Shown piece by piece: positions 3,534 to 22,625 of a stretch of DNA of 64,000 bases (position 1 is its first letter; every line of letters begins with the position of its first letter). The position numbers and the translations under genes are program-made. Origin of the DNA: Cellulomonas alba (GTDB lineage: Bacteria; Actinomycetota; Actinomycetes; Actinomycetales; Cellulomonadaceae); the NCBI RefSeq assembly GCF_030362835.1, contig NZ_JAUCGQ010000002.1:1-64000 (forward strand), given 5' to 3'. The notes beneath the pieces are model-generated. The model saw only the letters and a program-made list of their open reading frames with translations, was not told where the DNA came from and did not search any database.

Positions 3534-3548
3534 CGGTCTGCTCCCAGA

Positions 3549-4130
3549 TCACCCAGCCGGCTCGACGCTGGAGACCAGCCACGTGCCGCCGGCGGGAGCT
3601 GGAACAACGTGGACGCGAATCCACGCACCCGTCGTCGGAACGTCCAGTACGCCCTCCTCGGCGTTGATCGCGACCTGCCGCGGCTGACCACGCACGGTGA
3701 CGTCTGGCGTACTCGCCGGGTTCGTCGTGCTCAGTCCGCTGCTCCAGAGCTCGCTTGTGACGAGCGGACGCACGCCGGCGGACCAGGCCTGAGCGTCAAG
3801 GTCGGGACGCGCCCAGGCGGCGACGAAAGCGGCCGCCGCGTCGGCTGCAGCCGCAGACGGATCGCCGCCAGTCTCATCGGCGCCGAGATCGTCGGTGCCA
3901 GCCGTTCTATCTACGACGTTGTCGCTCAAGCTGTCGGATGGGGAGGGAGCGGCGGTGGTCGAGACGGCCTCAGACGGCGAGGCACTGACCGCAGTCGTCG
4001 GTCCGGACCCTGAGTGGTCGTTCGCCTGGCCGACAAGGAACACCGCGGCGAGCGCGACGATGACGACGGCGGCGAACCGCCGCGCCGAATACAACGGCCA
4101 CCGGACGATCGGAGCGAGCGCGTCCCACAT
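3549..4130 (-). CDS. TcpC-like conjugal transfer protein
   Basis: 193 residues. A short cytoplasmic N-terminus and one transmembrane helix (about 18-36) are followed by a Ser/Thr/Asp-rich low-complexity stalk (about 38-90) and a C-terminal extracellular domain of about 100 residues with an NTF2/TcpC-like pattern (AAAFVAAWARPD...WVRV-type strands ending GTWLVSSVEPAG). TcpC/VirB8-like proteins bridge the membrane and the cell wall in Gram-positive transfer machines. The ATG at 4130 overlaps the stop of the upstream membrane protein (TGATG), so the two are translationally coupled. Family assignment rests on architecture and position more than on sequence motifs. Confidence 0.65.
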   Translation of the reverse strand: MWDALAPIVRWPLYSARRFAAVVIVALAAVFLVGQANDHSGSGPTTAVSASPSEAVSTTAAPSPSDSLSDNVVDRTAGTDDLGADETGGDPSAAAADAAAAFVAAWARPDLDAQAWSAGVRPLVTSELWSSGLSTTNPASTPDVTVRGQPRQVAINAEEGVLDVPTTGAWIRVHVVPAPAGGTWLVSSVEPAG

Positions 4131-6253
4131 CAGAGGTACTCCTCCGGCTCGTCGGCCTTTGCATGCGCGCCCGTCGGCGGCCGCCAGATCTCGAAGACCG
4201 GCCTGCCTGCGGCGTCGTATCGCGCGGTCGCCTCCACCACACCGGGCGGAAGCTCGACGGAGTGGCCCAGGACCTCACCTCGGGGAGCGTTCTTGTCGAC
4301 CGGAGCGGCGAGATCGACATCGCGTTCCTCCGGTCCAATCGGCGGGTGGCTCCGTAGTTGCTCGCGAGTGCCGCCATGCTCGCCGTCCAGCTCGGCGCTT
4401 GCTGCGCGCCGACTTCCCATCGGTCCGGCGTCGCGGGCAGCAGAGCCAGCTATCTCCCGCGCACTGGACTGGTCGTTGAGCGCATCTCCTCCACCGACGA
4501 TCGCCAGCTCACGACGCGAGCGGCGCGGCAACGCATGCTCGGGCTGCTGACCTTCGGGCAGTTCGCGCTGGCGGTCCAGGTACCGCCCTGTGCCTGCAGC
4601 GGCGGCCGCGTCCGTCAGCTCGCGGGGTGCTGGCGCCGTCGGCAGCTCGCGACGAGGCGCACCCGTCATGGCGATTTCGTGGGCGTCGCCCACCGCCACG
4701 GGGGCGCCCTTGGCGTTGACGATTCGATACGTGCTGGGCTTGCGGCGCAGATCCTCGGGTCCGCCCAGGTCCGGGTTGCCGCCCTTGGCCTGGCCGTCGT
4801 CGACAGCGTCGCGGACCGCCTTGTGCGTCACGAATCCGTTGAACAGCGTGCCGATGCCTGACCTCGCCATGCGGCGCGCCGCGCGAGATCCCGGCATCGC
4901 TCGGCCGGGTCGCAGCAGCTTGAACAGCACGATGGGAATCGCCGCGACAATCACGAGCTGCAGCCCGAACGCCAGGTGGGAGTCGAGCACCGCCGTGTCG
5001 AGCAAGAGATTCGCGAGCGCGGCGACGAAGAAGGCCGGCCCGAGGACGACGAAGCGTCCGACCTGCTTGAGCACGCCGATCACCCAGTCCTGCGTGACGT
5101 AGAGCAGCCCGAGCACGCCGAACGCCGGCGCGAGCGGCACGAAGACCCTCGTGGCGATGTACGCGATGACGATGAAGACGGCGGCCACTGCGAGGAAGGG
5201 CATCGTGACCCCGACGCGCAGGACCACCGTCGCCGCCGCATCCCAGCGTCCGTTGTTCCCGGTGAGCTGCTGGTACGCGCCGGAGTCATCGCGCTCCACC
5301 GACGACGCAGTCTTGACCCACAGGTCCTTCTTTGCCTGGATGATCGCCTGGCCCGCGGACGGATCGTCCTTGACGGTCTCCGCTTCGCGCCACGAGAGGT
5401 GCGAAGCCCGGAACAGGTCCGGCCCGTAGGTACGAGCGATCGCGCTGTCCGACGAGCCGACCGTCCCGTCGAGCCATTCGTTGTAGCACGTGTCCCGGTT
5501 GATCGTGTCGAACATGTCGTCGAGCGCCGCTTGCGCTCTGTTCGTCCCAGGCGGCCCAGGCGTCTCCTCAGCCGCGCCGACGCCTCGGGCCGACGTGGCG
5601 ATCGTGGTCTGCACGAGCTGGTCGACCGCGCGCGCCGACGAGACCGGGTAGCTCATGACGAAGGTGGCAGTCACCAGGACCAGGAGCGCCCATCCGGCCG
5701 TCGTTACCGCCGCGGAAACCTGGGCGCGCGTGGCTGCAATCAGCACGCCCGAGCCGACGATCACTAGCATCGCCGTCACCCACGGGTCCCACAACCCACC
5801 CTTGATCGCGCTCGTTGCCGCGGTGAGCACGCCGTCGAGCGGAGCCAGGAAGTCTGGCGTCACCACGACGCTGAACAGGGAATGCGTGAAGGCCGACACC
5901 GACGCGCTTCCGCTCATGAGGGCGTTCGCGACGGAGGTCTGGACCTTGGGCAGCGCATCAGAGCCAGGAAGGCAGCCGTTGTCGTAGTTCACCCAGTGGT
6001 AGGAGTACCCGTAAACGTCGGCGATTTTGACGTTCCGGTCCGTGAACGGGTCGGCGTCCGTCGCTGTCGCAGGCTTGCCGTAGAGCTTGCCGGGCAGGCC
6101 GTCGAACGGCGAAGCCGGTTCGGGAGCGGGCGCGCACGCCTTCGTCAGCACCGGACCAACTGCCGGCGCGGACGCCGCCGAGGCAGCAAGCGCGGGGCCA
6201 CCGACGGTCAAGCCAACCGCGAGGGCTGCCGTCATCACGGCGCGGCGGATCAT
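4130..6253 (-). CDS. TrbL/VirB6-like polytopic conjugation membrane protein
   Basis: 707 residues with a cleavable-looking signal peptide (MIRRAVMTAALAVGLTVGG... ending ALAASAASA) and about six to seven transmembrane segments between residues 150 and 450. A long hydrophilic Arg/Glu/Pro-rich cytoplasmic tail covers about 455-707. This is the architecture of the channel-forming membrane subunit of actinobacterial type IV transfer systems. The ATG at 6253 overlaps the stop of the VirB4-like ATPase by four bases. A Cys-containing external loop (DTCYNEWLDG) and CLPGSD could form a disulfide. Predicted role: inner channel with VirB4. Confidence 0.8.
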   Translation of the reverse strand: MIRRAVMTAALAVGLTVGGPALAASAASAPAVGPVLTKACAPAPEPASPFDGLPGKLYGKPATATDADPFTDRNVKIADVYGYSYHWVNYDNGCLPGSDALPKVQTSVANALMSGSASVSAFTHSLFSVVVTPDFLAPLDGVLTAATSAIKGGLWDPWVTAMLVIVGSGVLIAATRAQVSAAVTTAGWALLVLVTATFVMSYPVSSARAVDQLVQTTIATSARGVGAAEETPGPPGTNRAQAALDDMFDTINRDTCYNEWLDGTVGSSDSAIARTYGPDLFRASHLSWREAETVKDDPSAGQAIIQAKKDLWVKTASSVERDDSGAYQQLTGNNGRWDAAATVVLRVGVTMPFLAVAAVFIVIAYIATRVFVPLAPAFGVLGLLYVTQDWVIGVLKQVGRFVVLGPAFFVAALANLLLDTAVLDSHLAFGLQLVIVAAIPIVLFKLLRPGRAMPGSRAARRMARSGIGTLFNGFVTHKAVRDAVDDGQAKGGNPDLGGPEDLRRKPSTYRIVNAKGAPVAVGDAHEIAMTGAPRRELPTAPAPRELTDAAAAAGTGRYLDRQRELPEGQQPEHALPRRSRRELAIVGGGDALNDQSSAREIAGSAARDAGPMGSRRAASAELDGEHGGTREQLRSHPPIGPEERDVDLAAPVDKNAPRGEVLGHSVELPPGVVEATARYDAAGRPVFEIWRPPTGAHAKADEPEEYL

Positions 6254-8958
6254 GCCGCGCCCTCCTCCGCGACGAGCTCCACCGCTCTCCGCTTCGCCGG
6301 GTCCGCCGTGGTGTTGAGGGCGGCGGTCAGACGTTCGTGATTGCTGTAGTCGACGCGGATCTTCTCGACGCCGCCCTTGCCGTCCTCGCCGCCCATACCA
6401 TCGCGGAAGATGAACTCCCGCGGTGTCCCGGTGAGCTCGGACCGTCGGGAACGCCGCGAGAGCTTGGCGAACTCAGCCTCGTATCCGACGCCGACCGGCA
6501 GTCCGAGGAGCCGGCAGTTGTGGGCCTGCGCCTCGTCGTCGGTCGTCTTCCCGACGAAGGCGGCGCCAACGAAGTTGTTGATGTTCTGCCCGATCACGTT
6601 GGCCGCGTTCTGCGTCGAGACGAGCGCCGCTATGTCGTGCTTGCGGGTGTCGGTGGCGACCTTCTGCACGAGCGTCCGGCCGGTCGAGACGGCGGTGATC
6701 TCGTGGACCTCGTCGAGGAACATGCCTTTGCGCTCGTTGAAGTCCGCTCGGTACACCGACCGCAGCGCCGACCACGCGGCCAAGGACATGACCGGGCGGC
6801 TCATGAGCTCGTCGTACGACCATTCGGTCTTCGGCTTGTTCTCGTCGATCTGCGCCAGGCCCTTGAGGCTGAAGAACGTCATGCGCCGGTCGCTCAGCGG
6901 CGCGCCATGGTTTCCGCTGGACGGCGTGGCGAAGAACAGCCGTGAGAGCTCGCGTTCCGACGCCTCACGCAGCCGTCGCCCGACCCGGGCGACGAGGTCG
7001 CGGTCGCCCTGGGCGTCGTTGTGCAGGGTGATCAGGACGCCGTGGGCGGTCGAGTGCGGCCGTGCCTCAGCCCTGGCGACCGCGTCTCGTAGGACGGAGA
7101 GCGCAGCCTGGTCATTCTGGTCTTCTGCGGGCAGACACCACCGCAGCGTGTCGGTCATCAGGTCTCGGCGCTGAGCCTCGGCAGCTGACTTCGCCAGCGC
7201 GAGGGCGTGCTGCGGGTCGGGCTCGTCACGGAACCACGCCAGCTGCGGTTCGGGCACGAGCGCGTACGGGTTGAGTGCGCCCGGCTCGGACTGCAGCAGA
7301 TTGATGGCGGCCGCGACTCCCCGGAACTCGGGCAGCTCGGCCAGTGCGCCGAGTCGGCCGGACGGGTCCATCACCGTCCACGGCACGCCCTGCGCTCCCG
7401 TCTTGTAGACGATCCCGCCTGCGAAGAAGCTCTTGCCCGCGCCGAGCCCGCCGACGATCGGGACGAGGCCCGATCCCTCCACGACCTCGGGGCCGTACCA
7501 GGGGTCCCACGTGACCGGACGCTCTGCGAATCCGCTTGTGTAGCCGATCAGCACTCCGCGCTTGTCGCCGACCTCGGCCGTCGCCGCTGGCACACCGGCC
7601 GCGAGCTTGAGGATCGGCAGATGGCGAGTGTGGCCCGTGTTCGCCAGCGGCTCCATCGGCACGAACTCGCGCGCCAGACGGAACTGATCGAACTCGCGCT
7701 CGATCTTGATCGCCGGCTTGTAGACCTTCTGGACGAGCTTCGCTCGCTGGAGTGCCTCCTCCTGGCTCGGAGCGGCGACTGCTATCCGGAACCAGCCCCG
7801 CGTGCGGGTCGCGAGGCCGTCGAAGCCTGAGCGCTGCTCGTCCTCAACCGCCGAGGCCCGCTCGGCCTGCCGGGCGAGCTGACGAGGCGGCTGCTTGCCG
7901 TGGTCATCGAGGTAGTGATCGCGCTGAGCCAGGACGCGGTCGGAGAGCTTGTTCATCTCCTTCGACGTCTCTTCCGGCGAGCGCACGTCGACACGGAACG
8001 CCCACTCGACGGGGAACGGCAGCTTGTCCGTCTTGGCGATCCATGGCTCGTCCAGCTCAGGGATGTGCAGCTCGCCCATGCGACCGACGGTCAGGACGAC
8101 CACGTGCCGAGTGATCGGCTGGTCGCCCATCGTCGAGTCGATCCGCACGGACTGCGCCAGAGGCTCCGCGCTCCAGTGCGTCGCGCCGGTGAACTCGTGC
8201 AGGTCCTCCTTGGACCACTCGCGTTCCTCGATGGTGTCCTGCAGGGGAGCGGGGCAGCCGAGCGCGAACGAACGAGCCAGGAGCCACGCCATGTCGTTGC
8301 CGACGGCGGGCATGGCGTCGACGCCCGGGCCGGCCATGATCTCGTCGATCTCGTCCAGCCGATGCTGGAGCGCCTCGAGCTCCCGCCGCGCGACATCGGC
8401 GATCACGCGCCCGGTCAGGTTCACCGCCGACGACCGCGAGCCCAGGTCGACGCCGAAGTACACGAGCTTGTCGCTCTGCATCCGCGACGAGAGCTGGACT
8501 TGGTCGCGCTCGAGGATCTTGGCGAAGCCCTCCGTCGGTGCGGGGGAGTTGTTCCACGCCGCCTCCGCCCAGGTCTCCACCGCGTACGGCCGCGTCGTGA
8601 TGCGCCCGTACACCGTCCGACCCACGAGCTCGGCGATCTGCGACGCGTGCGCCTCGATCAGCGACTCGCCGTCCGCGACGGTGCGAAAGCTCCACCGCTG
8701 CGGATCCAGCAGGTACCACGCGACCATGCGCTTGTCGGAGAACGTGACGTGATCCGCCACGCGCGAGAGCAGCCAGTGCATCGGGCTCGTGAGCCGCGGC
8801 GCGTCTGGGTGCCGGCCCCGGCCCTTGGGTGCCCTCGTCGACCGCGGTTGCGAGCTGTCGACGAGTTCCTCCGCCGGGTCGTACGAGACGTCGACGTCTT
8901 CGTCGTCGTCCCCGTTGGGCCGATGACCCAGCAGCGACCTGAGATTGAGCTGCATCAT
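6250..8958 (-). CDS. VirB4-like conjugation ATPase
   Basis: 902 residues. The start is placed at the ATG-ATG pair 8958/8955, just after a GAGGGGG ribosome binding site and overlapping the upstream stop; the open frame reaches further but has no support. Walker A is GGLGAGKSFF at about residue 505 and Walker B is GMFLDEVHE at about 740, followed by STQNAANV, as in VirB4/TraC-type ATPases. The N-terminal half resembles the VirB4 docking region. It powers assembly and substrate transfer of the conjugation channel at the inner membrane. It lies centrally in the leftward operon. Confidence 0.92.
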   Translation of the reverse strand: MMQLNLRSLLGHRPNGDDDEDVDVSYDPAEELVDSSQPRSTRAPKGRGRHPDAPRLTSPMHWLLSRVADHVTFSDKRMVAWYLLDPQRWSFRTVADGESLIEAHASQIAELVGRTVYGRITTRPYAVETWAEAAWNNSPAPTEGFAKILERDQVQLSSRMQSDKLVYFGVDLGSRSSAVNLTGRVIADVARRELEALQHRLDEIDEIMAGPGVDAMPAVGNDMAWLLARSFALGCPAPLQDTIEEREWSKEDLHEFTGATHWSAEPLAQSVRIDSTMGDQPITRHVVVLTVGRMGELHIPELDEPWIAKTDKLPFPVEWAFRVDVRSPEETSKEMNKLSDRVLAQRDHYLDDHGKQPPRQLARQAERASAVEDEQRSGFDGLATRTRGWFRIAVAAPSQEEALQRAKLVQKVYKPAIKIEREFDQFRLAREFVPMEPLANTGHTRHLPILKLAAGVPAATAEVGDKRGVLIGYTSGFAERPVTWDPWYGPEVVEGSGLVPIVGGLGAGKSFFAGGIVYKTGAQGVPWTVMDPSGRLGALAELPEFRGVAAAINLLQSEPGALNPYALVPEPQLAWFRDEPDPQHALALAKSAAEAQRRDLMTDTLRWCLPAEDQNDQAALSVLRDAVARAEARPHSTAHGVLITLHNDAQGDRDLVARVGRRLREASERELSRLFFATPSSGNHGAPLSDRRMTFFSLKGLAQIDENKPKTEWSYDELMSRPVMSLAAWSALRSVYRADFNERKGMFLDEVHEITAVSTGRTLVQKVATDTRKHDIAALVSTQNAANVIGQNINNFVGAAFVGKTTDDEAQAHNCRLLGLPVGVGYEAEFAKLSRRSRRSELTGTPREFIFRDGMGGEDGKGGVEKIRVDYSNHERLTAALNTTADPAKRRAVELVAEEGAA

Positions 8959-9395
8959 TCCCCCTCGTATGCAGCGGCCTTTCGGTTCGCATAGGACCGC
9001 CACCGTCGACGCCGCCCGAGCGGCAGTGCATGCGCATCCCCGATCGAGGTGATCCGCCTGCGGAATGCCGATGACCGGCGAGAGTGCTGGCCCCTCGTGG
9101 GCACGCGGGTCGCGGTCAGCTCGTGCCAGAAAGTCGCGGCGAGCACGCTCATCGGGCGCTCGTGCGTCGTCTTGTCGACCACCCACTGCGACAGTCGCAA
9201 CGACACGAGCACCGTCAGGGCGACCGAGAGCAGCGAGAACCCGATGCCGGTCTTCACCAGGAACGCGAAGCCCAGCAGCGCGAACACTGGCGTCACGGCG
9301 ATCATCCGGTAGCGGAGCCGCCCGATGTAGTAGCCCGGTGGACCGAGATAGGTCTGGTCGACGTCGTAGATCTCGTCGTCGTCGGGCAGGCGCAT
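8955..9395 (-). CDS. PrgI/TcpE-like conjugation membrane protein
   Basis: 146 residues, beginning MRLPDDDEIYDVDQTYLGP two bases after the upstream stop. After an acidic N-terminus there are two hydrophobic segments (about 35-75), followed by a basic C-terminus. This matches the small PrgI/TcpE-type proteins encoded directly upstream of VirB4-like ATPases in Gram-positive ICEs, which anchor the ATPase at the membrane. The stop TGA overlaps the VirB4 ATG. An in-frame ATG 11 codons further upstream lies inside the previous gene and is less likely. Confidence 0.75.
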   Translation of the reverse strand: MRLPDDDEIYDVDQTYLGPPGYYIGRLRYRMIAVTPVFALLGFAFLVKTGIGFSLLSVALTVLVSLRLSQWVVDKTTHERPMSVLAATFWHELTATRVPTRGQHSRRSSAFRRRITSIGDAHALPLGRRRRWRSYANRKAAAYEGE

Positions 9396-10406: not shown

Positions 10407-11663
10407 CTACTTGAGTCGGCTAGCGCCCAGGAGTGCCTCGTCCCGGACGGCTTCCGCCACCGCGGTTGATGAAGTCACCCACAATGCGCGTCCCTGCGGC
10501 GACTTCGAGACATAGGAACTTCCAGGCGGAGCGACCAGCCATCCCGAGGCCGCCGCTTGCAGGAGCGCCGGTCGGTCGCGCAGGTAGCCGAGCAATTGTG
10601 CGAGACCCGCGCTCAGGTAAGAACTTGAGGATGAAGCTTTAAGTTCCAGCAGAATCGCGCGCGTCGGCACACCGCTATCGACGAACTCGACCACTATGTC
10701 GGGGCGGTTGCCGCCCGCAGCCAGCTCATAGTGGAGCATTGCGTCCATCAGCTCAGATGGTGCCGTAGAGGGCGGCCATGACTGATACCACACGCGCACA
10801 TCGCGCGACGCACTGATCCTAAATGCCGCAAATGGGCGACTTTGCCCATCGACTAATAGGCGAGTCGGATTTAGCCGCAGACCAACTACGGCCAGCGCAG
10901 CGGTGATTCGAAGAAGAACGGCTATCTCAAAGAGCCTCCAGTCCTCCTTCGGCTCGAAGTAACGCTCGCTCAGGGCGTCAATCACATCCTCGGGCGACGG
11001 TGCGACAAGCATGCGTCGCAAGTGGCGCGCCGCAGCGCCAACTCGCAGTCGATAGAAACCGATGCGATCCGCCTCAAGCCTCGAATATGCCTCGTCGCCC
11101 GGCCACTCGGCCGGGACGCCCTCGAGCCAGGCCATGCGGCGCGCGCGATGGATGATGTCGGTCATCGAACGGATCTCCGAGCTCCAAGTCGTCGCCGACT
11201 CGCTCAGCCGAGACGCGGCAATCACGCTCCGCTCTTCAGCCGCTTTTAGTGACCATGCCAGAAGCCGATTCTCGGGGATGTCAAAGATGCGATTTGCCGG
11301 ACGGGTCACCCAAATATCACCCGCCGGGCTCGAGGTCGCGCGATGTCGGACTGTCGCAGCCCAGTCGATGCCGGAGGTCACACTCCGGCCCGCCACCCTC
11401 GGACGAGCTGACGCCGTAAGCGGTCTGCGGATTCCTGTCGGCAGCGCAGCAACGAGATCTCGAACCGGCCTCGACAGCATCAAGTGGACAGCCAGAACCC
11501 GACGAAGGTCGGACTCCGCTAGGCGAAGCAGTTCGGCTGCTGCCGCGACTGGCCCGCCACGCTCAGTGCTTGCTGCACTGAGGAAAGCAGGGAGATGGTC
11601 CCTGACCTCCGAGAGCAGTACCGCTCGGAGTCCAGGCTCCAGGCTGCTCTCGATCTGGCTCAT
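10407..11663 (-). CDS. McrC-like PD-(D/E)XK nuclease subunit
   Basis: 418 residues. The middle region (ANRIFDIPENRLLAWSLKA, about 125-145) is the conserved McrC/DUF2357 signature. The C-terminal region has RPDIVVEF followed by AILLELKASSS (about 310-340), the D...E-x-K metal site of a PD-(D/E)XK nuclease. McrC proteins bind and stimulate the McrB motor and cut DNA. The ATG overlaps the stop of the McrB-like gene by four bases, so the subunits are made together. Base composition is visibly lower in G+C than the flanking chromosome, consistent with acquisition. The 214-base gap to the regulator gene holds no further feature beyond the operator. Confidence 0.85.
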   Translation of the reverse strand: MSQIESSLEPGLRAVLLSEVRDHLPAFLSAASTERGGPVAAAAELLRLAESDLRRVLAVHLMLSRPVRDLVAALPTGIRRPLTASARPRVAGRSVTSGIDWAATVRHRATSSPAGDIWVTRPANRIFDIPENRLLAWSLKAAEERSVIAASRLSESATTWSSEIRSMTDIIHRARRMAWLEGVPAEWPGDEAYSRLEADRIGFYRLRVGAAARHLRRMLVAPSPEDVIDALSERYFEPKEDWRLFEIAVLLRITAALAVVGLRLNPTRLLVDGQSRPFAAFRISASRDVRVWYQSWPPSTAPSELMDAMLHYELAAGGNRPDIVVEFVDSGVPTRAILLELKASSSSSYLSAGLAQLLGYLRDRPALLQAAASGWLVAPPGSSYVSKSPQGRALWVTSSTAVAEAVRDEALLGASRLK

Positions 11664-13675
11664 GACAACGCGACTTCGCGGATGGCGGACTCGAGAACGT
11701 CTCTGGCGCCGACGCCGGCGCTCGGCAGCAGCTCGTCGATCAGTCCCAAGAGCCTCTCGCTGGCTGTCAATGGCTGGCCCTCGTACTGCGGAACGACGAG
11801 GAGACGCGTGGCAGTCAGAATCGCTTCCTCGTCACTAGAAAATGTCGGTTCTCCGCTCGCGGTTTCCGCCAATCCTTCCACTATGAGCTGTGCGAAGTCG
11901 CGCCCGATCGCCGGACCGATCGCGACGGGTCCCGCGACGATCGCCATCGCGACGTCGACGAAGATAGCAACGTCGGGGCGGCCCAACTTCGCGAACCATT
12001 GCAAAAAGAGCGCGCGATAGTCGGCTTTCGCTGGAAGAGGCACGTCGATCACGGCGAATCGACGAAGGAACGCAAAGGATAGGCGAAAAAGGCTGGCCTT
12101 ATCGGATACGTTCAGCGTGCCAATAATGCGCCACGCTGGCGTGACGGCGAAGACGCCGTCCGCGACGGTCGGGTTCGATGACCATTCGATCGTTACCGGC
12201 TTTCCGTCGCTGGTGGTATACGGCAATACGGAAGTCCGTCCACCGGATCCCTCGCCGCCCGAAAGCACTGTGAAGAGGGGACCAAACGCCTTATCGATGT
12301 CGGCGCGGTTTACCTCGTCAATGACCAGCCAGCCGTTGGTGCGTAGCGAGCGCAGCACAACACCAGGTACGAACCGCAATCCATTGGCATCGGGGAGATA
12401 ACCCCCGATCGTGTCGAACGTTGTCCAGTCGGCTGTCGCGGTCGTCACGTCGTAGTTATTGCTCACGACGGCTCGACACAGCGCTTCGCCCAGCGTAGTC
12501 TTCCCGGTTCCCGGTGGGCCGCCCAATAGCAGATGCTTTCCCGCACGAAGGGCGGCGACAGCAGCGGCGACAACGCTGCGCTCGATCGAGAAGCCATCTG
12601 GGAGTTCCGCCAGTACGGCTTCGACGGAAAGCCCCTGCAGCGCGGCGGCTGTGTCGGCGTCCGCAGGTGCTTCCTCGGTCGCACCCAGTACCGCGTCCGG
12701 GGGAAGCGGTCGCTTTGCCAGTTCAATGGCTTGAGTCACAGCGCGGCTGAGCGAGCGGAACTCGTAGAACGCGGCGTAGTCGTCGACCGCACGGACCGCC
12801 TGATTGGAATTCAGGAGGCCGAGGAGTTCATCGGTCGCGCCAATGGCAGGCTCGGCGTTGAACGGGTCGGCGGGTGTCGCCTTGCGTTCAGCTTCAATTA
12901 GGAGTGCGCGTATCTCTTCGGGCGTGCGGGCGATTGGCTGCTGGGGTTGCGCCAGTACCCCGCTCGCGTCGGCGGTGGCTGTCCCCGGCATTGTCGCTCG
13001 CGTAACGAGGAATGCCATGTCGCCATCGCGCGGAGGGCGCCCTGCGGCCGTTAGAAGTTCAGCAGCCTTTTCGACGTTCTGCGCCTCGACGAGGCTGAGC
13101 CTCCTGAGCAAAGCCTCGTCGTCGCGTCCGGGATCGGCAGCCGCTCGAAGGCTAGCAACGAGCCCACGAGAGACCTCCTGGATGGGTCTCGCTGGAGCTG
13201 ACCCCTTGAACTGTGAAGCGACGGTCTCGCTCAGGCTGCGCAGCCGCAGGAAGTCAGCTGCCGGCAGGGGAGCGGTAAGCGGCTCCACCGCGACAGGTAC
13301 GACAACCCAGACTTGTCCGTTGTCGGTTCTGTCGCTGGCCTTGCCGGCCACTCGAAGCACGTGCGGGACGCCGCCCGCGACCGCTTCGTACTGTCCGAGT
13401 AGCTCCTCGTCGGCTTGCCCCATCGACGCTGCCAGATCGTGCAGTGTGTGCAGTTCATCCTCGCCTCGGGCTGGGGATGACTCGTACAGCGGCACGATCT
13501 GTTCGCCGGGCGACACGCGGTGCAATGCGTCTGCCATCGCGGTGTCCGGCTTCGCAGCCAGCTCGCCGTTCTGGACGTGCGCGAAGGTCGTCGCGTTGGC
13601 GAACAGGGCGTAGTCGGTCACGACCGTAAAGTAGCGGAGGCCGGCCGCGGCTCCAGGGACGTGTCGGTAGGACAC
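11660..13675 (-). CDS. McrB-like AAA+ motor of a restriction system
   Basis: 671 residues from the GTG at 13675; the frame could extend to 13753, but that would overlap the divergent methyltransferase start. The N-terminal 350 residues are a non-catalytic region of unknown fold, likely DNA- or target-sensing. The AAA+ core has Walker A GGPPGTGKTT (about 385), Walker B WLVIDEVNRAD (about 448) and the McrB-type signature GTLNVSDK (about 520). McrB proteins are GTP- or ATP-driven rings that translocate DNA and activate McrC. The N-terminus does not look like the classical methylcytosine reader, which fits a restriction unit that senses missing host methylation. Confidence 0.85.
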   Translation of the reverse strand: MSYRHVPGAAAGLRYFTVVTDYALFANATTFAHVQNGELAAKPDTAMADALHRVSPGEQIVPLYESSPARGEDELHTLHDLAASMGQADEELLGQYEAVAGGVPHVLRVAGKASDRTDNGQVWVVVPVAVEPLTAPLPAADFLRLRSLSETVASQFKGSAPARPIQEVSRGLVASLRAAADPGRDDEALLRRLSLVEAQNVEKAAELLTAAGRPPRDGDMAFLVTRATMPGTATADASGVLAQPQQPIARTPEEIRALLIEAERKATPADPFNAEPAIGATDELLGLLNSNQAVRAVDDYAAFYEFRSLSRAVTQAIELAKRPLPPDAVLGATEEAPADADTAAALQGLSVEAVLAELPDGFSIERSVVAAAVAALRAGKHLLLGGPPGTGKTTLGEALCRAVVSNNYDVTTATADWTTFDTIGGYLPDANGLRFVPGVVLRSLRTNGWLVIDEVNRADIDKAFGPLFTVLSGGEGSGGRTSVLPYTTSDGKPVTIEWSSNPTVADGVFAVTPAWRIIGTLNVSDKASLFRLSFAFLRRFAVIDVPLPAKADYRALFLQWFAKLGRPDVAIFVDVAMAIVAGPVAIGPAIGRDFAQLIVEGLAETASGEPTFSSDEEAILTATRLLVVPQYEGQPLTASERLLGLIDELLPSAGVGARDVLESAIREVALS

Positions 13676-13689
13676 CCTATGGTGACGAC

Positions 13690-15747
13690 GTGTCCAACCG
13701 ACGACCTTCACCCGACTGGCTTGCTCTGTCGTCACCAGGGCACAACCGTCCACTCGTTCCCCGGGTGGAACGACGGGCGCGGCACGTTCGGGCCGTCGCC
13801 GCCAAGGTGGAGTCCGATGTCGGTCTGCCGTTCGAGGAGCTCTACAAGCCGACGAGGGCCGGACTGGGTTTCACGCTCGTTGATCGTGACGTCGCCCGGC
13901 GCTCCGCTTGGGCGCTCGTCGGCGAATGGCTCGTCGCTGCTTCAGTGCAAGCGCCCTGCGCGAGCGATGGCCTGAGCGCCGCTCATGAGTGGTTCTGGCG
14001 GGGAAGTGACCGCGCGCTCGGTGCTGTGCCTGAAGTCCGCATGTCGATCGACGTTGAAGCCCTCGAGCTTCGAGCCCTGCTTCCGTACCTACTCGACCCG
14101 ATGGCGGCGGCGACGCGACGCGACGTTCTCAACGCAAACAGCACCCCTCACGAGCGGAGAGTCCGCAAGGCAACCGGCGTCTACTACACGCCGGGCGACG
14201 TTGCCCACTTGATGGTCGAACGGGTCGCGTCACGCCGCACAAGTCTCGCTACCGACCTCTGGCTCGATCCCGCTCATGGGAGCGGCGTCTTCCTGCGCGC
14301 GGTCTTCTGTGCGCTTGGGGGGCGCCCGGATGCTCTCGATCGCATTTACGGCGTCGACGTGGATCCGATCGCGGCGGAGACTGCATCCTTTGTGCTCACC
14401 GCGGAGAGCATCGCCAACGATCCCGACGGAGATCGTCCTTGGGAGGTCTGGCACCGCGTCCGCCGAAACCTGGCCACGGGAGACGCTCTTCTAATTGACC
14501 CTGCGCCGCTGACCGACGCGCCGACTTCGCTCATTGACGAAATGGCGCGATCGTTGGACGGGAACCCGCTCGGAAGTGTTCGGCCCTGGCGGCTAGACTC
14601 AGTCTTTCCTGAAACGAACGCCAGCGGTTTTGCGTGCATCGTAGCGAACCCGCCGTACGCCCCGCTTCAGCGCAACGCGGCGACACACCACATTTCTGAC
14701 TTGCACCCCGTTGCGGGCCCGACAGTTAGTGCAGACATATCGCCGGTATTTGTGGAGCTGTGCACCAACCTATTGCCTCGCGAAGGCGCTCTGGCGATTG
14801 TACTCCCACTTTCCGCGGTCTCATCCACGCGGTCGCCCTTCCCACAACTTCGCGAATACTTGGCCGGTCAACCGGGCCGGCTCGAGTTGCTCTCATTCGA
14901 CCGGGTTCCAGATGCCCTCTTTGGCGATGACATCAAGACGCGCAACTCAATTGTGCACCTGGACAGGAGCGCTCCAAGCGACATTACTGTGAGCCCGCTC
15001 TACCGCTGGACCAGCCGACGGCGTTCTTCGGCATTGGGCGAAGCTCCCATCGTCTCCATCGCTGGTATCGCGGAAGTGCCAGAAGTCATTCCGAAGATCG
15101 GCTCGTCTTGGGAGCGTGAACTCCTCCTCGCCTGCCAAGGCCACGGGCGCTACCTGGCACACCTGACCTTGAGCCAGCGGCTGTCACCGCTCGACAACAC
15201 GGGCGGGGCCCTGACCGGCGGTGACCAGCTAGACCTGCTGGCGTTGGCGCCGACGGCGTACAACTTCCTCGGGGTTGTCCGCGATCCCTTTCGCGCGGTC
15301 ATCGACGGGCACGACTCACAGAACAAGTTCTCGATCCTGCGATACGCATCGGAACGGGAAGCCTCGGCCGCCTACGCCCTGCTCAGCAGTCGCCTGGCCT
15401 TCTGGCTGTGGCACGTAACGGGCGACGGCTTTCACGTCACCGGCGCGCTCGCCCGCCGCCTGCCGGTCCCGTGGCGCGAGCAGGAGCGCGTCGAGCGGCT
15501 GGCGGACCTCGGAGAGCAACTGTGGAAGGACGCGCTTCAGAGGCCCCTGATCAGCAAGAACCGCGGACGCACCACCGTTGCGTACCCTCCGGAGCGCGAC
15601 ACGCAACTCGTCGACGAGATCGATGCGGTGATGGAGGAGGTCGTCGGCGTACCCTATGGCGCTCAGCTGGCCGCGTGGCACGAGCAACTCATCGTTGTCG
15701 ACTCCGACTCCGAGAGACGCAACTTGATCCGGAGGACGAAGCAGTGA
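13690..15747 (+). CDS. Eco57I-like N6-adenine DNA methyltransferase
   Basis: 685 residues from GTG 13690, divergent from the McrB-like gene with only 14 bases between starts. A helical N-terminal region (1-140) precedes the TGVYYTP motif (about 162-168), SAM-binding motif DPAHGSG (193-199) and catalytic NPPY (320-323). The C-terminal 300 residues would hold target recognition. This is the gamma-class organisation of Eco57I/BREX-type adenine methylases without a fused nuclease domain. The stop overlaps the GTG of the next methyltransferase. Predicted role: protects host DNA from the McrBC-like nuclease. Promoters must lie inside the coding starts, or the mRNAs are leaderless. Confidence 0.87.
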   Translation: MSNRRPSPDWLALSSPGHNRPLVPRVERRARHVRAVAAKVESDVGLPFEELYKPTRAGLGFTLVDRDVARRSAWALVGEWLVAASVQAPCASDGLSAAHEWFWRGSDRALGAVPEVRMSIDVEALELRALLPYLLDPMAAATRRDVLNANSTPHERRVRKATGVYYTPGDVAHLMVERVASRRTSLATDLWLDPAHGSGVFLRAVFCALGGRPDALDRIYGVDVDPIAAETASFVLTAESIANDPDGDRPWEVWHRVRRNLATGDALLIDPAPLTDAPTSLIDEMARSLDGNPLGSVRPWRLDSVFPETNASGFACIVANPPYAPLQRNAATHHISDLHPVAGPTVSADISPVFVELCTNLLPREGALAIVLPLSAVSSTRSPFPQLREYLAGQPGRLELLSFDRVPDALFGDDIKTRNSIVHLDRSAPSDITVSPLYRWTSRRRSSALGEAPIVSIAGIAEVPEVIPKIGSSWERELLLACQGHGRYLAHLTLSQRLSPLDNTGGALTGGDQLDLLALAPTAYNFLGVVRDPFRAVIDGHDSQNKFSILRYASEREASAAYALLSSRLAFWLWHVTGDGFHVTGALARRLPVPWREQERVERLADLGEQLWKDALQRPLISKNRGRTTVAYPPERDTQLVDEIDAVMEEVVGVPYGAQLAAWHEQLIVVDSDSERRNLIRRTKQ

Positions 15748-16598
15748 GTCTCGTTGTGACCCGAGAGCAGCGCGACGCCAGCGCGATCACCAAGGAAGAG
15801 TGGCGCGAGTACACCAAGACCGTGTGGAGCATCGCCAACGTCTCCGATCCCGAACACCCCGCCGTTTTCCCCCGGGAAATCCCCGCGCGGCTCATCAAGA
15901 TGTTCAGCTTCGTGGGAGAGACGGTCTTGGACCCGTTTGGCGGCACGGGAACAACGGGTCGCGTCGCAGCCGAGCTCGGCCGCCGGGGGGTTTGTGTCGA
16001 TCAAAGCGACGCTTACGTCCAGCGCATGCGTCGAGAGAAGGCGATGCTGAACGGGTCAGGCGAGTTGTTCGAACCACGCCTCGGCGACGCCCGGGCGCTC
16101 GATCTCGAAGACGAGTCGGTCGGCTTGGCTGTCACGAGTCCGCCCTACTGGAACAAAGCCGACTATGGCCAGGGCCTGAACAATTTGGGCAACGTCGAGG
16201 GTTACCTCGAGTTCATCGAGTCCCTACGGCCAGCGTTTTCGGAAGTGTTTAGAGTTCTGGCACCTGGACGGAAGTTTTGCGTTAACACTGCCAATGTCAA
16301 CCAGCACACCGAGCACGGCTTGCTTACCTTCCCTTTGGCGACGGACCTCGTAATCCTCCTCCGCCAACTTGGATTCGTGCTTGTCAATGAGATCATTTGG
16401 AACAAGGATGGCACCGGAGGCAAGTGGGGCTCGGCGAATGGTCAGCGCCCCATCTTTGGCAGCTATCCGTATCCACCGAACTTCCTATTTAAGAACGTGC
16501 ACGAGTACATCATCATCGTGGCAAAGCCGCCTTCGAAGAAGTCCTCTGGCAAGACCGTGGTGCCCTACGATGAGATTATGCGATCGCCAGAACGGTGA
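15744..16598 (+). CDS. Second DNA amino-methyltransferase, permuted motif order
   Basis: 284 residues. The GTG at 15744 overlaps the upstream stop (GTGA) and has GGAGG nine bases before it. The N-terminus carries FP-x-x-IPARLI and the SAM motif LDPFGGTGTTG (about 62-72), followed by the catalytic TSPPY at 131-135. In beta-class N4-cytosine or N6-adenine methylases the order is usually TSPPY first and the FxGxG block last, so this protein is circularly permuted. Methylated base (N4C or N6A) is undecided. Its coupling to the first methylase suggests the two modify the two strands of an asymmetric target. Confidence 0.85.
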   Translation: MSLVVTREQRDASAITKEEWREYTKTVWSIANVSDPEHPAVFPREIPARLIKMFSFVGETVLDPFGGTGTTGRVAAELGRRGVCVDQSDAYVQRMRREKAMLNGSGELFEPRLGDARALDLEDESVGLAVTSPPYWNKADYGQGLNNLGNVEGYLEFIESLRPAFSEVFRVLAPGRKFCVNTANVNQHTEHGLLTFPLATDLVILLRQLGFVLVNEIIWNKDGTGGKWGSANGQRPIFGSYPYPPNFLFKNVHEYIIIVAKPPSKKSSGKTVVPYDEIMRSPER

Positions 16599-16610
16599 GC
16601 GGGGAGCGGG

Positions 16611-17096
16611 ATGACACAGCTGCCAGACCTTCTGACTGGGACAGAACTTTGCCTCGTGGCAGAGGTCCCGGGTGCGGGTGATCGATGGAAGCAGGTGCAT
16701 TTCAACCTCGACATCGCGCGGCGGTTTTTTAATCTCGAACCCGGTTCGAATCGCTCAATTACTCTCGAGCGTATCGGCCCAACCGGGTACGTCGTCGAGC
16801 GTGCTAGCCGGCAGTTGGTCATCCCCGAATCGAACAGAAACTCAAGGATTGAGTTTTCGTTTGGGCGCGCGGCGGAGTATCCTCCGGCTCCGAATCGACC
16901 GATTGTTGTTGTCGTGGAAGCGAGCTACCTGACCTACCGGTACAGAACGCTCATGCCCGGTGAACCCGGCTACGAGGGTGCCAAGGCTCTCCTTGCCGCC
17001 GGGCCAAGCATTGGAAAGGGTGTCCGGCGAAGAATCGTTACCCTCGATGACCTCGAGGGCTACTGGCCCCACGCACTTCTTCGTGGCGGCATCTAG
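16611..17096 (+). CDS. Small protein of unknown function in the restriction-modification operon
   Basis: 161 residues, starting 12 bases after the second methyltransferase with a GGGAGCGGG ribosome binding region. It has no membrane segment or Cys cluster and is predicted beta-rich (alternating strands such as GYVVERA, RPIVVVVEASYLTY). No nuclease motif is evident. Possible roles are DNA recognition or a regulatory or inhibitory partner; a B3-like or barrel-type DNA-binding fold is a guess. Being last in the operon argues for a real part of the system rather than a passenger. Confidence 0.65.
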   Translation: MTQLPDLLTGTELCLVAEVPGAGDRWKQVHFNLDIARRFFNLEPGSNRSITLERIGPTGYVVERASRQLVIPESNRNSRIEFSFGRAAEYPPAPNRPIVVVVEASYLTYRYRTLMPGEPGYEGAKALLAAGPSIGKGVRRRIVTLDDLEGYWPHALLRGGI

Positions 17097-17232: not shown

Positions 17233-18249
17233 CTACCTTGCAAGTTGTGCATCGATCGCTGCACGAACGCTCGTGAGAGCGTCGGCGTCAAAGCCATCTG
17301 GCTTCAACGCCAGGCGATGAAGCCGAGCGTCTTCGTTTTCGGCGCGACCGTCGTCATGGCGGTCGATTTCTCGTACATGCAAGAGTCCGTACCAGTCGAG
17401 AGTCTTCCGCGCAGCCGAAAAAGGGTCGCGGTGGATGCCGTAGTGCCGGAGTCGCGCCCAAGCTGGGATCGCAACCTCACCCTCCCTGACGTCACTGTCC
17501 GGGTCCGGTCTTAAGGCGTGTAGCCCGCACGCGACCATCAAGAGCAACGTGATCTCCGAATCTTCCAGGACGTGGATCCAGCCGTTCGTGATGAAGCCTG
17601 CTGGTACAGCAAAGGTGCTGGACTCGCGCAGACGAGGAACGACGTACGGTCGCCGGTCACCGGAGAGTTGCCGTCCCGCCTCGTGCAGGAGCGTGAAGCC
17701 CTCGTGCCGGCCGCGCCGTCCGGGATCGCCCGGGAGTTCGACGAGACCGGCTTCACTGAGGGTGTCGAGCGCAGCGCGGACGGAGCGAGCTTTCTTGTCT
17801 CGTGCCGAGGAGTGAGTTGCTCCCCTTCCGGAACTGATGGCGCCGGACGCGATGACGTCGGTCCACCCTCGTTCCGACTCGAAAGAGGCGATCTCGAGCT
17901 GCGGGAGGCGAGCGCGATGTCCCGGCGGGGTAGTCATCTGCGCGATCGCGAGGCCCGCGAGATAGAGGCGCAATGCCACTCCCTGGCTCGTCGAGACACG
18001 TGTGGCGGACGGTCGCAACTCCCGCCGCGGAGCTCGGCGGTCTGAGGCCGCGTTCTCGTCGATCGGTGCGTCGAGGCACACGAACTCGTTCCGCAGTGTC
18101 AGGCCCCGTCGGAGTGATCCGAAGCGGTCAAGCGCCTCGGCCGCGGAGACCACCGACCGTCCGAACGCGCCCGCTAACCGGTCCCGTCGGTACTCGAACG
18201 CAGAGCGTTCCTTCGCTCGCAACGGGCGGCTGAAGTCGATACCAAGCAT
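17233..18249 (-). CDS. Hypothetical protein with winged-helix-like segments
   Basis: 338 residues, convergent with the methyltransferase operon (136-base gap). Two regions look like DNA-binding helices: KARSVRAALDTLSEAGLVELPG (about 155-176) is a typical winged-helix recognition segment, and the C-terminal ARKTLDWYGLLHV is similar in style. A central hydrophobic strand set (NGWIHVLEDSEITLLLMVACG) is followed by an acidic loop. No enzyme motif is visible. Similar layouts occur in replication initiators and in defence-island regulators, but I cannot assign either. A palindrome at 18300-18319 lies about 50 bases upstream. Confidence 0.6.
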   Translation of the reverse strand: MLGIDFSRPLRAKERSAFEYRRDRLAGAFGRSVVSAAEALDRFGSLRRGLTLRNEFVCLDAPIDENAASDRRAPRRELRPSATRVSTSQGVALRLYLAGLAIAQMTTPPGHRARLPQLEIASFESERGWTDVIASGAISSGRGATHSSARDKKARSVRAALDTLSEAGLVELPGDPGRRGRHEGFTLLHEAGRQLSGDRRPYVVPRLRESSTFAVPAGFITNGWIHVLEDSEITLLLMVACGLHALRPDPDSDVREGEVAIPAWARLRHYGIHRDPFSAARKTLDWYGLLHVREIDRHDDGRAENEDARLHRLALKPDGFDADALTSVRAAIDAQLAR

Positions 18250-19376: not shown

Positions 19377-22300
19377 GTGGCGCACGGCAATGGCAGACGT
19401 CGGCGCGGGTGGGTCGACAACACGGTGCCGGACTTGTGGACGGCGGTCGGCACTCAACAGTCGCGGCTGACGCTCAGCCGGATGTCATGGCCTGCACCGT
19501 CGCGCTTCCCGGCCAACCACGCGTCCTCACACGTCGATTCGATCCTGCGACCCGACTTGATGGCCAGCTCGGCGGTGCTGGCGGTCGTCGGCTTCGCTTC
19601 CATTGAGCAACTGGTTGAGCTCGTCGCTGCGCGATCGGCCGATCCCCGCGACGGTGTGCGGGTGCTGCTTGGGTGGGAGCCGTTCATCAGCCAACGGGTG
19701 TCGTTCGGGTCAGCCACAGCATCGTTCGATGACGAGGTTCGCCGCTACTGGATCGAGCAGGAGGGCGTCTCACTACGCAGCTCCGCCAAGATCGTGCAGA
19801 CCTTGAACGCCCTTGAGGCCGGCCACCTACAGGTGCGGTTCGTCCCGGGCCACGATCGCCTTCACGCGAAGGTGTACCTCGCCGATCGGGCGGCGACGCT
19901 CGGCTCGAGTAACTTCACGCGCAACGGACTGCGAACCCAGCTGGAAGCCAACGCACGGTTCGACCGGCTCGACTCCGACGGGCGCTACGAGGAGCTGCGC
20001 ACGATTGGCGAGAACTTCTGGCAGATCGGCCAGGCGTGGGACGAGCCGTTCGCCGCACTGCTGCGTGACCTGCTCAAGTTCGTCTCGTGGCCGGAGGCGC
20101 TCGCCCGCGCATGCGCCGACCTGCTGGAAGGTCACTGGGCCGACCGTTTCCTGTCGGCGCAACCCGGCGGTGAGCCGCTGTGGCCTTCTCAGCGGTTTGG
20201 GATCGCCGAAGCACTTTGGGTCGTTGAGAACGTCGGATCGGTGCTCGTCGCCGACGCCACCGGGTCGGGCAAGACCCGCATGGGTGCCCACCTGACAGCG
20301 GCGGTCCGCAACCGGCTTTGGAGCACGGGACGCGTCCGGCGCGACCTCACCGTGGTCGTATGCCCCAAGGCGGTCGAGGCGGACTGGTTGCGGGAGGCCG
20401 TCTCCTGCGGCCTGACCGCCCGCACCGTGGCCCAGAGCCTGCTGTCGCAGGCATCGCCAGACGGCCCCCGCCTCCAGGAACGAGAGGTCGCCGAAGCCCA
20501 GATCCTCGCAGTGGACGAGGCGCACAACTTCCTCACGGCCTCGCGGCGCACCAGATTCGTCCGAGAGTCATCGGCAGACCATGTGCTGATGTTCACCGCG
20601 ACCCCGATCAACCGGGGTGCGTCCGACCTGCTGTCCCTGGTCGACCTGCTCGGCGCAGACAACTTCGACGACGCCACACTGAAGGTCCTGGACAATCTCG
20701 GCCGACGCGGGCGCGACGGCATCCTCGCGGATCAGGAGAAGGCTCTGCTGCGAGCCGAGATCCAACGGTTCACGGTCCGACGCACCAAGAACCGTCTCAA
20801 CGGACTCGTCGCAGACAACCCCGAGGCGTACCGCGACCCATCGACCGGCCGGATCTGTCGCTACCCGGAGCACCGCAGCTCGAGCTATCGCACGGGGGAG
20901 TCAACCCAAGACGTGGCTCTGGCTGCCGAGATCCGAGAGCACGCGCATGCGCTCACTGGAGTTGGGCTGCTCGGAAACCAACTTCTGATGCCACCCGGAC
21001 TGCGCCGGGAGATGACCGATGAGCATTGGCTCGAGCTCCGGCTCGGATCGGCCCGCGGCTTGGCGGCCCACCACGTACTGTCCGCGCTCCGTTCCTCGAA
21101 GGCCGCGCTGATCGAGCACTTGCGCGGCACGGCCGTTGCGGTGGTCAGCCTCGAGGTGACGAACCTGGTCAAGGCCCAACCTACGGGCAACCAGATCGGC
21201 GCCGTTGGTGCGGTCAGGGAGCGCGGACGTCCGACAGTCGACCTGCGGTGCAAGCTGCCTGTGTGGCTGACCGATGACGACGCGTGGCTCGCACGGTGCG
21301 AGGAGGACCTCGAGCACTACCTGGCGATCGAACGATGCGCTCGGGAACTGGACGCCAGCCGCGAGCAGGCCAAGGCGGAGCATCTGCTCGCGCTGTCACG
21401 CCGGCACAGCCTCGTCCTCGCCTTCGACCGGCACCCCATCACGTTGGCCGTGCTCGGCGCGCGCCTGGCCGCCGCCGGAGTCGATGTCGAGATCGCGACC
21501 GGCGCGGACAAGGCCAGCCAGAAGCGCGTGACACGGCAGTTCGCCCTCGGATCGACCCACCGCGGAGTTGCGCTCTGCTCGGACGCGATGAACGAGGGCA
21601 TCAACCTGCAGGGCGCCTCCTGCATCGTGCACCTGGACATGCCAACGACGCTGCGGGTCGCGGAGCAGCGCGTCGGTCGCGTAGATCGGATGAACTCCCC
21701 GCACGCCGCCGTGGAGGTCTGGTGGCCGAACGACGGAGCGGAATTCGCGACTCGAGCCGACGAGCTGTTGGCCACCCGGAACATCGAGAGCTCGCAGCTG
21801 CTCGGCTCTAACCTCCCGATCCCGTCGGACGGGAACACGATCATCGACCACTCCCTGTTCAGCCAGACCCGGGACGAAGACTGGGACGGCCTGTACGACG
21901 CGCTGGAGCCCGTGCGCCGGCTGGTTAGCGGGGAGGACGCTCTAGTGCCGCCCGACGTGTACGAGGACCAGCAGCACGCCCGGGAACGCGTGATGTCACG
22001 CGTGAGCCCGGTGCGCTCCAGCGTGCCTTGGGCGTTCTTCGCTATTGCGGGCACGGCACACGGCGCTCCTCGCTGGCTCGTGTTGGAAGGGAGTGACTCC
22101 GCGCCAACGACAGGGCTTCCCGAGGTGACAGCCCGGCTGCGTGCGCTGCTCGCGGAGGATCCGCCGCAACGCGACTTCGACGGGGCCTGCGAATACTGGC
22201 TCGAGCGGTTCCTCGACGCTGCGGCACGCGCCGAGATCGCGCTGCTCCCGCGGCGGGATCAGAGGGCTCTCGCGCAGATGGCCACATGCGCGCGAACGTG

Positions 22301-22625
22301 GGCGTCTGCGGCGAGGTTCGCGGGCGACAGGGAGGAGGCCGCTGCGCGGTGGGACGTGATCGGCCGCATCGCGCGCGGCGAGACCGATGAGGGGGCGGTC
22401 GACCTGCACGAAACGGCGGCAATCTGGCGTCAACTGACCCGCACCCGACGTGACGAGTACCGAGCCGCACACCGGCGTCGCCGCTACCTGACCCTGTCCG
22501 ACCTCGACCAGGACTTGGCGGTCCGACCGCTGGATCTGACCGACGTTGAATCGGGACTGTCCGGCCTAAGCGTGATTCCCACCCTTGACCGACGCATCTC
22601 AGCCTGCATCCTCGCTGTTCCGTGA
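19377..22625 (+). CDS. Phospholipase-D-like nuclease fused to a superfamily 2 helicase
   Basis: Up to 1082 residues; the true start is uncertain (GTG 19377 and ATG 19482 are both possible, and the first 35 residues have weak coding character). The N-terminal domain carries one HKD-type motif, HAKVYLADRAATLGSSNFT at about 162-180. The helicase core follows: Walker A ADATGSGKT (about 293), VDEAH (about 378), FTATPINRG (about 402) and motif VI QRVGRVDRMNS (about 765). The C-terminal 280 residues are unassigned. PLD-helicase proteins are a recurring phage-defence architecture that combines DNA tracking and cutting. The adjacent zinc-ribbon gene may be a partner. Confidence 0.85.
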   Translation: MAHGNGRRRRGWVDNTVPDLWTAVGTQQSRLTLSRMSWPAPSRFPANHASSHVDSILRPDLMASSAVLAVVGFASIEQLVELVAARSADPRDGVRVLLGWEPFISQRVSFGSATASFDDEVRRYWIEQEGVSLRSSAKIVQTLNALEAGHLQVRFVPGHDRLHAKVYLADRAATLGSSNFTRNGLRTQLEANARFDRLDSDGRYEELRTIGENFWQIGQAWDEPFAALLRDLLKFVSWPEALARACADLLEGHWADRFLSAQPGGEPLWPSQRFGIAEALWVVENVGSVLVADATGSGKTRMGAHLTAAVRNRLWSTGRVRRDLTVVVCPKAVEADWLREAVSCGLTARTVAQSLLSQASPDGPRLQEREVAEAQILAVDEAHNFLTASRRTRFVRESSADHVLMFTATPINRGASDLLSLVDLLGADNFDDATLKVLDNLGRRGRDGILADQEKALLRAEIQRFTVRRTKNRLNGLVADNPEAYRDPSTGRICRYPEHRSSSYRTGESTQDVALAAEIREHAHALTGVGLLGNQLLMPPGLRREMTDEHWLELRLGSARGLAAHHVLSALRSSKAALIEHLRGTAVAVVSLEVTNLVKAQPTGNQIGAVGAVRERGRPTVDLRCKLPVWLTDDDAWLARCEEDLEHYLAIERCARELDASREQAKAEHLLALSRRHSLVLAFDRHPITLAVLGARLAAAGVDVEIATGADKASQKRVTRQFALGSTHRGVALCSDAMNEGINLQGASCIVHLDMPTTLRVAEQRVGRVDRMNSPHAAVEVWWPNDGAEFATRADELLATRNIESSQLLGSNLPIPSDGNTIIDHSLFSQTRDEDWDGLYDALEPVRRLVSGEDALVPPDVYEDQQHARERVMSRVSPVRSSVPWAFFAIAGTAHGAPRWLVLEGSDSAPTTGLPEVTARLRALLAEDPPQRDFDGACEYWLERFLDAAARAEIALLPRRDQRALAQMATCARTWASAARFAGDREEAAARWDVIGRIARGETDEGAVDLHETAAIWRQLTRTRRDEYRAAHRRRRYLTLSDLDQDLAVRPLDLTDVESGLSGLSVIPTLDRRISACILAVP

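Follow-up and report, generated by a model that had tools for sequence, protein, structure and literature searches.

Among the restriction systems built on McrBC-like engines, LlaJI is described, in the sections of the published accounts consulted here, as restricting DNA at unmethylated asymmetric sites and carrying two cytosine-C5 methylases (PMC1459862), and as reading DNA through a B3 domain (PMC7680126, PMC12707154); it combines the B3 domain, the two methyltransferases (MTases), and a McrBC-like engine that acts on unmodified asymmetric sites (PMC1459862, PMC12707154). LlaI and BsuMI are presented in the same sections as restriction cassettes of three open reading frames (ORFs) with short McrB-like proteins (PMC1459862), and other McrB relatives are said there to use YTH or EVE domains for base recognition (PMC12707154, PMC7680126). 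We analyzed a stretch of 64,000 nucleotides from Cellulomonas alba (contig NZ_JAUCGQ010000002.1, positions 1 to 64,000; this whole stretch is the window), which contains a five-gene cassette encoding a McrB-like and a McrC-like protein, two amino-methylases (MTase1 and MTase2), and a small protein with a B3 fold. We estimate a probability of about 0.68 that the cassette is a Type II-like restriction-modification (R-M) system in which the B3 protein guides the McrBC engine to asymmetric sites that lack methylation. An earlier note on this DNA had proposed an R-M system attacking unmethylated sites; this is still the best reading, supported by the conserved cassette and the amino-methylases, with restriction activity itself presumed.

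The cassette resembles LlaJI of Lactococcus and Helicobacter in its McrB/McrC-like pair, its two MTases, and the B3 recognition fold, as in LlaJI.R1 (6c5d); an asymmetric, unmethylated target would be a further likeness, which we propose by analogy. Both LlaJI methylases are of the C5 type, whereas those of the cassette are amino-MTases; the B3 domain of Helicobacter pylori LlaJI lies on the N terminus of the McrB-like protein, whereas that of the window is separate and the McrB N terminus is EVE/YTH-like; and the gene layout in the window is divergent. BsuMI and LlaI, with McrB-like proteins in cassettes of three restriction ORFs, are a precedent for the split layout, but these McrB-like proteins, of 343 and 337 amino acids (aa), have no large N terminus. 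The LlaI methylase is of the adenine type. A B3 recognition domain is also shared with BfiI and other PLD-type Type IIS R-M enzymes and with CglI/NgoAVII, and BfiI likewise has two methylases, while relatives of the window's methylase pair adjoin PLD-family genes; however, the cassette has no PLD nuclease, its B3 domain is detached rather than fused to one, and McrBC would be the nuclease. The Type IV McrBC systems of Escherichia coli and Thermococcus have the same architecture of McrB motor and McrC-like nuclease, and some archaeal McrB proteins have the same PUA-type (EVE/YTH-like) N terminus, but Type IV systems have no cognate methylases, whereas the cassette has two linked MTases and a B3 subunit, and most of eight aromatic residues are missing from its McrB. 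No title or abstract describing a stand-alone B3 subunit with McrBC was found, which is not proof of absence, the subscription literature lying mostly outside the search. R-M systems of the LlaJI, LlaI, and BsuMI kind are known; new here are the amino-methylases, the detached B3 specificity protein, and the apparently decayed EVE/YTH-like reader in a McrBC-based system.

Conservation and rarity of the cassette

All five ORFs were present and intact in the window. The conserved gene order that the earlier note had proposed to look for was found on plasmid pB of Paenarthrobacter ureafaciens, typed as conjugative, where all five genes recur in identical order and divergent layout, with identities of 63% (McrC), 63% (McrB), 62% (MTase1), 85% (MTase2), and 73% (small protein). 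Further members were recognized in Nocardioides hungaricus (locus tags 24900 for the small protein, 24930 for McrB, and 24940 for McrC) and Nocardia sp. CA-135953 (02480 for the small protein and 02500 for McrC). Linkage was judged by matching the longest contig of each protein cluster across three homolog lists, which comprised the best 120 of 135 McrC proteins, the best 120 of 465 McrB proteins, and 111 of 112 small proteins. At least 35 contigs, including those of the window and Paenarthrobacter, carried McrC, McrB, and the small protein. Small-protein contigs of 7 kb or more numbered 50, of which 47 also appeared among the McrB or McrC entries.

According to the earlier note, independent occurrence of the two halves in most genomes would speak against a joint system. 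McrBC and the small protein co-occurred strongly, but the small protein was absent from all 21 far-group contigs of at least 6.9 kb, which carry distant McrBC relatives (43 to 47% identical), and relatives of the methylase pair were found with a PLD nuclease at two loci. Because co-occurrence is strong in close relatives while the distant McrBC and the methylase-pair relatives stand apart, the association is lineage specific and looks assembled from modules.

The five-gene system is rare in species-level genomes. The McrC-like profile matched only the window's own genome among 297 genomes of the order and among 394 of the class, and had no confirmed relative in GTDB-220 contigs or viral contigs; searching with the single McrC-like protein found none in phages. 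MTase2 matched 1 of 396 phylum genomes, again the window's own, the B3 profile matched no viral contig, and the distant McrB search of 396 genomes returned three partial matches besides its own. The family is known mostly from protein clusters without genomic context.

The McrBC engine and its wider family

The McrB-like protein matches Pfam AAA_5 (E value, 2e-17) and carries GGPPGTGKTT, WLVIDEVNRAD, and LNVSD, which we take to be the Walker A, Walker B, and N-x-x-D elements. Its profile matches the McrB chains 6hz4, 6ut6, 7vsr, and 6ut3 of the PDB, although midasin chains score higher; PADLOC and NCBIfam gave general NTPase or methylase matches for the five proteins and a weak McrB equivalog match. 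The Pfam and PDB matches thus identify a McrB-type AAA+ motor, as the earlier note had named it. For the McrC-like protein, also named in that note, neither Pfam, NCBIfam, and PADLOC nor the PDB sequences gave a match; its identity is drawn from the R320-P-D322 and L-E340-L-K342-A residues, which are invariant across 20 homologs and consistent with a PD-(D/E)XK nuclease, and from position, a McrC-like gene lying directly after the McrB match in 76 of 80 distant loci (the best 80 of 404 places).

Within 3 kb, 10 of these 76 distant McrBC loci have a C5 methylase and 7 an amino-methylase, recognized by homology, and 1 has a candidate recognized by motif only; no MTase was detected at 58 loci. 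The notion that McrBC relatives pair with C5 methylases only was therefore too narrow: McrBC-like engines pair repeatedly with methylases of both chemistries, although at most loci none was detected. Dongia and Sphingomonas show another arrangement of McrBC with an amino-methylase, whose gene converges on the McrC-like gene and overlaps it slightly (L018, 12290-13558; L064, 5942-7291; L075, near 3960-5210). On a Priestia plasmid (L004, 6604-13098), a C5 MTase, an NgoFVII-type enzyme, and Vsr directly precede a McrBC-like pair, and on a haloarchaeal plasmid (L005, 10695-20661) a McrBC-like pair is convergent with a Dam-type MTase, a DUF1156 MTase, and a DUF499 ATPase. A distant McrBC of Solirubrobacter (L009, 6093-9566, minus strand) has a McrB N terminus resembling the aromatic-rich group and no detected methylase; its neighbors, a weak AAA_23 (SMC-like) match and a 311-aa protein of no family, could with it form a separate defense system.

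Methylases and the small B3 protein

The earlier note's assignment of both methylases to the amino type held: MTase1 matches Eco57I (2e-10) and N6_Mtase (3e-8) in Pfam, with no match in the PDB sequence search, and MTase2 matches N6_N4_Mtase (4e-36), with motif I before motif IV, an order permuted relative to 2zie. A Salipiger plasmid encodes a methylase in which M1 and M2 are fused; its C-terminal half shares 64% identity with MTase2 over 285 residues and its N-terminal half 33.5% with MTase1, and the fused gene precedes an adjoining PLD-family gene. Similarly, an IMG/VR contig (L090) carries an MTase1-like gene, an MTase2-like gene (4-base overlap; MTase2 64% identical), and then a PLD-family gene; neither locus gave a McrC-profile match. 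A second contig (L091) has the MTase pair, and there the locus ends. Given the gene order of L090, the window has its B3 gene where L090 has the PLD gene. For BfiI, whose site is asymmetric, two methylases acting on opposite strands are described, and B3 domains are said to perform target recognition in PLD enzymes (PMC4267653); by analogy we infer that the target here is asymmetric and that each strand has its own methylase. Membership of BREX/Pgl was considered and rejected, MTase1 giving only weak PglX matches and none of the five proteins matching PglZ or BrxC. An Abditibacteriota plasmid (L008) with apparently the same M1-M2-small order was dropped as BREX-like (DUF4007 and a weak PglZ match).

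The small gene, left as unknown in the earlier note, likely encodes a specificity subunit, judging from its predicted fold. The fold is B3, with BfiI-C as the first and LlaJI.R1 (6c5d) as the second structural match, and the 161 aa comprise B3 only, with no fused PLD nuclease domain. The relationship is visible from the fold only: the protein has no Pfam match, PDB sequence searches gave nothing meaningful, and no sequence link was found to the C terminus of the Salipiger PLD protein or to the Priestia NgoFVII enzyme.

The N-terminal domain of McrB

Structure prediction, which the earlier note had suggested, gave an AlphaFold2 model of the McrB N-terminal domain with a predicted local distance difference test score (pLDDT) of 92. 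The model matches MJECL36, PH1033, VcaM4I, THYN1, YTH domains, and the N-terminal domain of S. marinus McrB, the stretch beyond about residue 185 being barely covered, and the predicted fold is EVE/YTH-like, the class of other modified-base readers. The earlier note had called this N terminus unlike the known methylcytosine reader; the fold belongs to the modified-base-reader class, yet of eight positions that stay aromatic in distant McrB relatives, close relatives have lost most. Seven are lost in the window McrB, which retains W123 (model numbering), and in the main group, which includes the window (22 rows), six are never aromatic and the others are aromatic in 5% and 32% of the rows. The reader domain thus appears to have decayed, and the loss suggests that it now serves another role.

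Conflict between the B3 and McrBC trees

Pairwise distances of McrB and McrC correlated at 0.93, and those of the small protein with these two at 0.71 and 0.67 (35 rows, one of them paired with a wrong small protein and the window row taken from shorter database entries). Trees were built, with these two rows corrected, only from contigs with all three proteins, initially 34 plus the window and, after ten deeper rows were dropped, 24 plus the window (25 rows). The seven small proteins whose loop after strand 1 is longer group as a single clade in the B3 tree (100/100) but fall in three places of the McrBC tree; the McrBC data reject their grouping (P value of the approximately unbiased test [p-AU], 1e-73). 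Conversely, the B3 data reject the McrBC sister pair 14520/92477, whose B3 types differ (p-AU, 9e-8), and a nine-row McrBC clade (p-AU, 1e-37), all of these groups having been picked after the trees were seen. Such a conflict is as expected for an exchanged specificity subunit and suggests exchange of B3 between McrBC lineages. In a 51-row alignment, the 7 long-loop and 42 short-loop rows (two rows of middle loop length were left out) differ most in strand 1 (0.28) and loop 19-27 (0.33), the loop excess being partly built in by the definition of the types by loop length, followed by the 56-90 region (0.16), with 0.04 to 0.10 elsewhere; strand 1, loop 19-27, and the 56-90 region are presumably the DNA-contacting arms of B3 domains.

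Proposed mechanism and alternative explanations

In the proposed Type II-like R-M system, the stand-alone B3 protein would read a short, probably asymmetric site, and in host DNA each of the two amino-methylases would shield one strand of this site. When invading DNA is unmethylated, the B3 protein would bind it and recruit or activate the McrB AAA+ ring, which would move on DNA, presumably using nucleoside triphosphate, and bring in the McrC PD-(D/E)XK nuclease to cut. The EVE/YTH-like domain of McrB would be an ancestral modified-base reader that now does something else, for instance contacting DNA or docking B3. As to origin, one tentative scenario, not far from an even bet, is that a Type IV McrBC became Type II by taking up a BfiI-like module of methylase pair and B3 without the PLD nuclease; its base-reading pocket would have decayed, and B3 would have become a detached specificity subunit that passes from one McrBC lineage to another, comparable to HsdS of Type I systems.

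Several points weigh against the R-M reading. Its support is wholly computational, and the contact of B3 with McrB or McrC is presumed. Of the 67 McrB contigs of the main and mid groups that reach 6.9 kb, contig matching showed the small protein in only 40, a lower bound, and the window and L003 alone gave a direct reading of the linkage of MTase1 and MTase2. Among B3-linked relatives, some (P0191 and P0202) retain as many as five of the eight aromatic residues, and another seven aromatic columns persist in close and distant McrB rows alike, so the retained EVE/YTH-like domain could still read a modification. A dual sensor of this kind, for which the high-confidence fold and the reported use of YTH or EVE domains by McrB relatives (PMC12707154 and PMC7680126, in the sections consulted) also speak, is nevertheless unlikely given the loss of aromatic residues at most of the eight positions in the main group, the window included. 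It is more improbable still that a plain Type IV McrBC merely lies beside an unrelated methylase/B3 cassette in a defense island: distant relatives do lack a detected MTase or B3 (L009 and the far-group contigs), and methylase-pair relatives do occur without McrBC, but the listing of nearly all longer small-protein contigs for McrB or McrC and the same divergent arrangement on the unrelated Paenarthrobacter plasmid argue otherwise, and methylases and B3 alone would hold no nuclease.

A selfish addiction module, in which McrBC kills cells that lose the methylases and maintenance of a plasmid or integrative and conjugative element is the main benefit, would fit a cassette that lies beside conjugation-type genes here and on a conjugative plasmid in Paenarthrobacter; its biochemical mechanism is the same as in the R-M reading, from which sequence does not distinguish it, and we give it a very small chance. 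We find it scarcely credible that the B3 protein partners not McrBC but the PLD-SNF2 helicase gene at 19377-22625, as in NgoAVII/CglI. This gene, 2.3 kb away, does encode PLD and helicase domains, but the conserved neighbor of the small protein is McrBC, and the gene had no match on the Paenarthrobacter five-gene plasmid (an empty result from a search without a positive control).

Gene layout and genomic setting

The features of the locus are listed in Table 1. The four-base overlaps of McrB with McrC and of MTase1 with MTase2, reported in the earlier note, were confirmed. Its 14 bases between the divergent halves depended on a GTG start at 13675; in an alignment of McrB homologs, 18 of 27 start at the equivalent of 13621, so the gap is probably 68 bases.

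Table 1. Features of the five-gene cassette in the window
Feature	Position	Strand	Remarks
McrC-like nuclease subunit	10407..11663	-	418 aa; conserved motif and McrB adjacency
Predicted PD-(D/E)XK catalytic segment of McrC-like protein	10638..10706	-	Invariant alignment columns
McrB-like AAA+ motor subunit	11660..13621	-	653 aa; start set by homologs
McrB-like alternative upstream starts	13675, 13711, 13735, 13753	-	
AAA+ domain of McrB	12056..12535	-	Pfam AAA_5, residues 407-566 of 697-aa ORF
Predicted EVE/YTH-like (PUA-type) N-terminal domain of McrB	13124..13621	-	AlphaFold2 model and fold matches
Divergent intergenic region	13622..13689	.	68 bases; likely shared promoter region
MTase1 (M1), N6-adenine-type methylase with NPPY	13690..15747	+	685 aa; Eco57I, N6_Mtase
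MTase2 (M2), N6_N4_Mtase with TSPPY	15744..16598	+	Pfam 4e-36; GTG start at 15744
Stand-alone B3-fold DNA-recognition protein, proposed specificity subunit	16611..17096	+	161 aa

The lower G+C content of the cassette, also reported earlier, was borne out, at 0.605 to 0.65 in 2-kb windows from 9 to 18 kb, compared with 0.66 to 0.70 on the left and 0.65 to 0.78 on the right. By a heuristic ORF scan, third-position G+C was 0.64 to 0.74 for the four cassette genes other than MTase2 and mostly 0.8 to 0.99 in ORFs beyond 23.8 kb. A placement within a mobile element is suggested by conjugation-type genes to the left (2211-9186, minus strand), which encode an M23 peptidase, a weak TrbL match, and a TcpF-like transfer ATPase. 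Other neighbors encode a 393-aa protein with a C-terminal DUF559/MTES_1575 nuclease-like domain (153-1334, minus strand), a 338-aa protein next after the B3 gene with no Pfam, PADLOC, or NCBIfam match (17233-18249, minus strand), and, on the plus strand, the 1,082-aa PLD and SNF2/helicase protein mentioned above, likely a second nuclease-helicase defense gene.

Implications

The cassette suggests a route by which a Type IV engine becomes a Type II restriction system. Its detached B3 protein may represent a natural, swappable guide for a nuclease driven by nucleoside triphosphates, and because the B3 and McrBC trees disagree, exchange of specificity can be put to a direct test.

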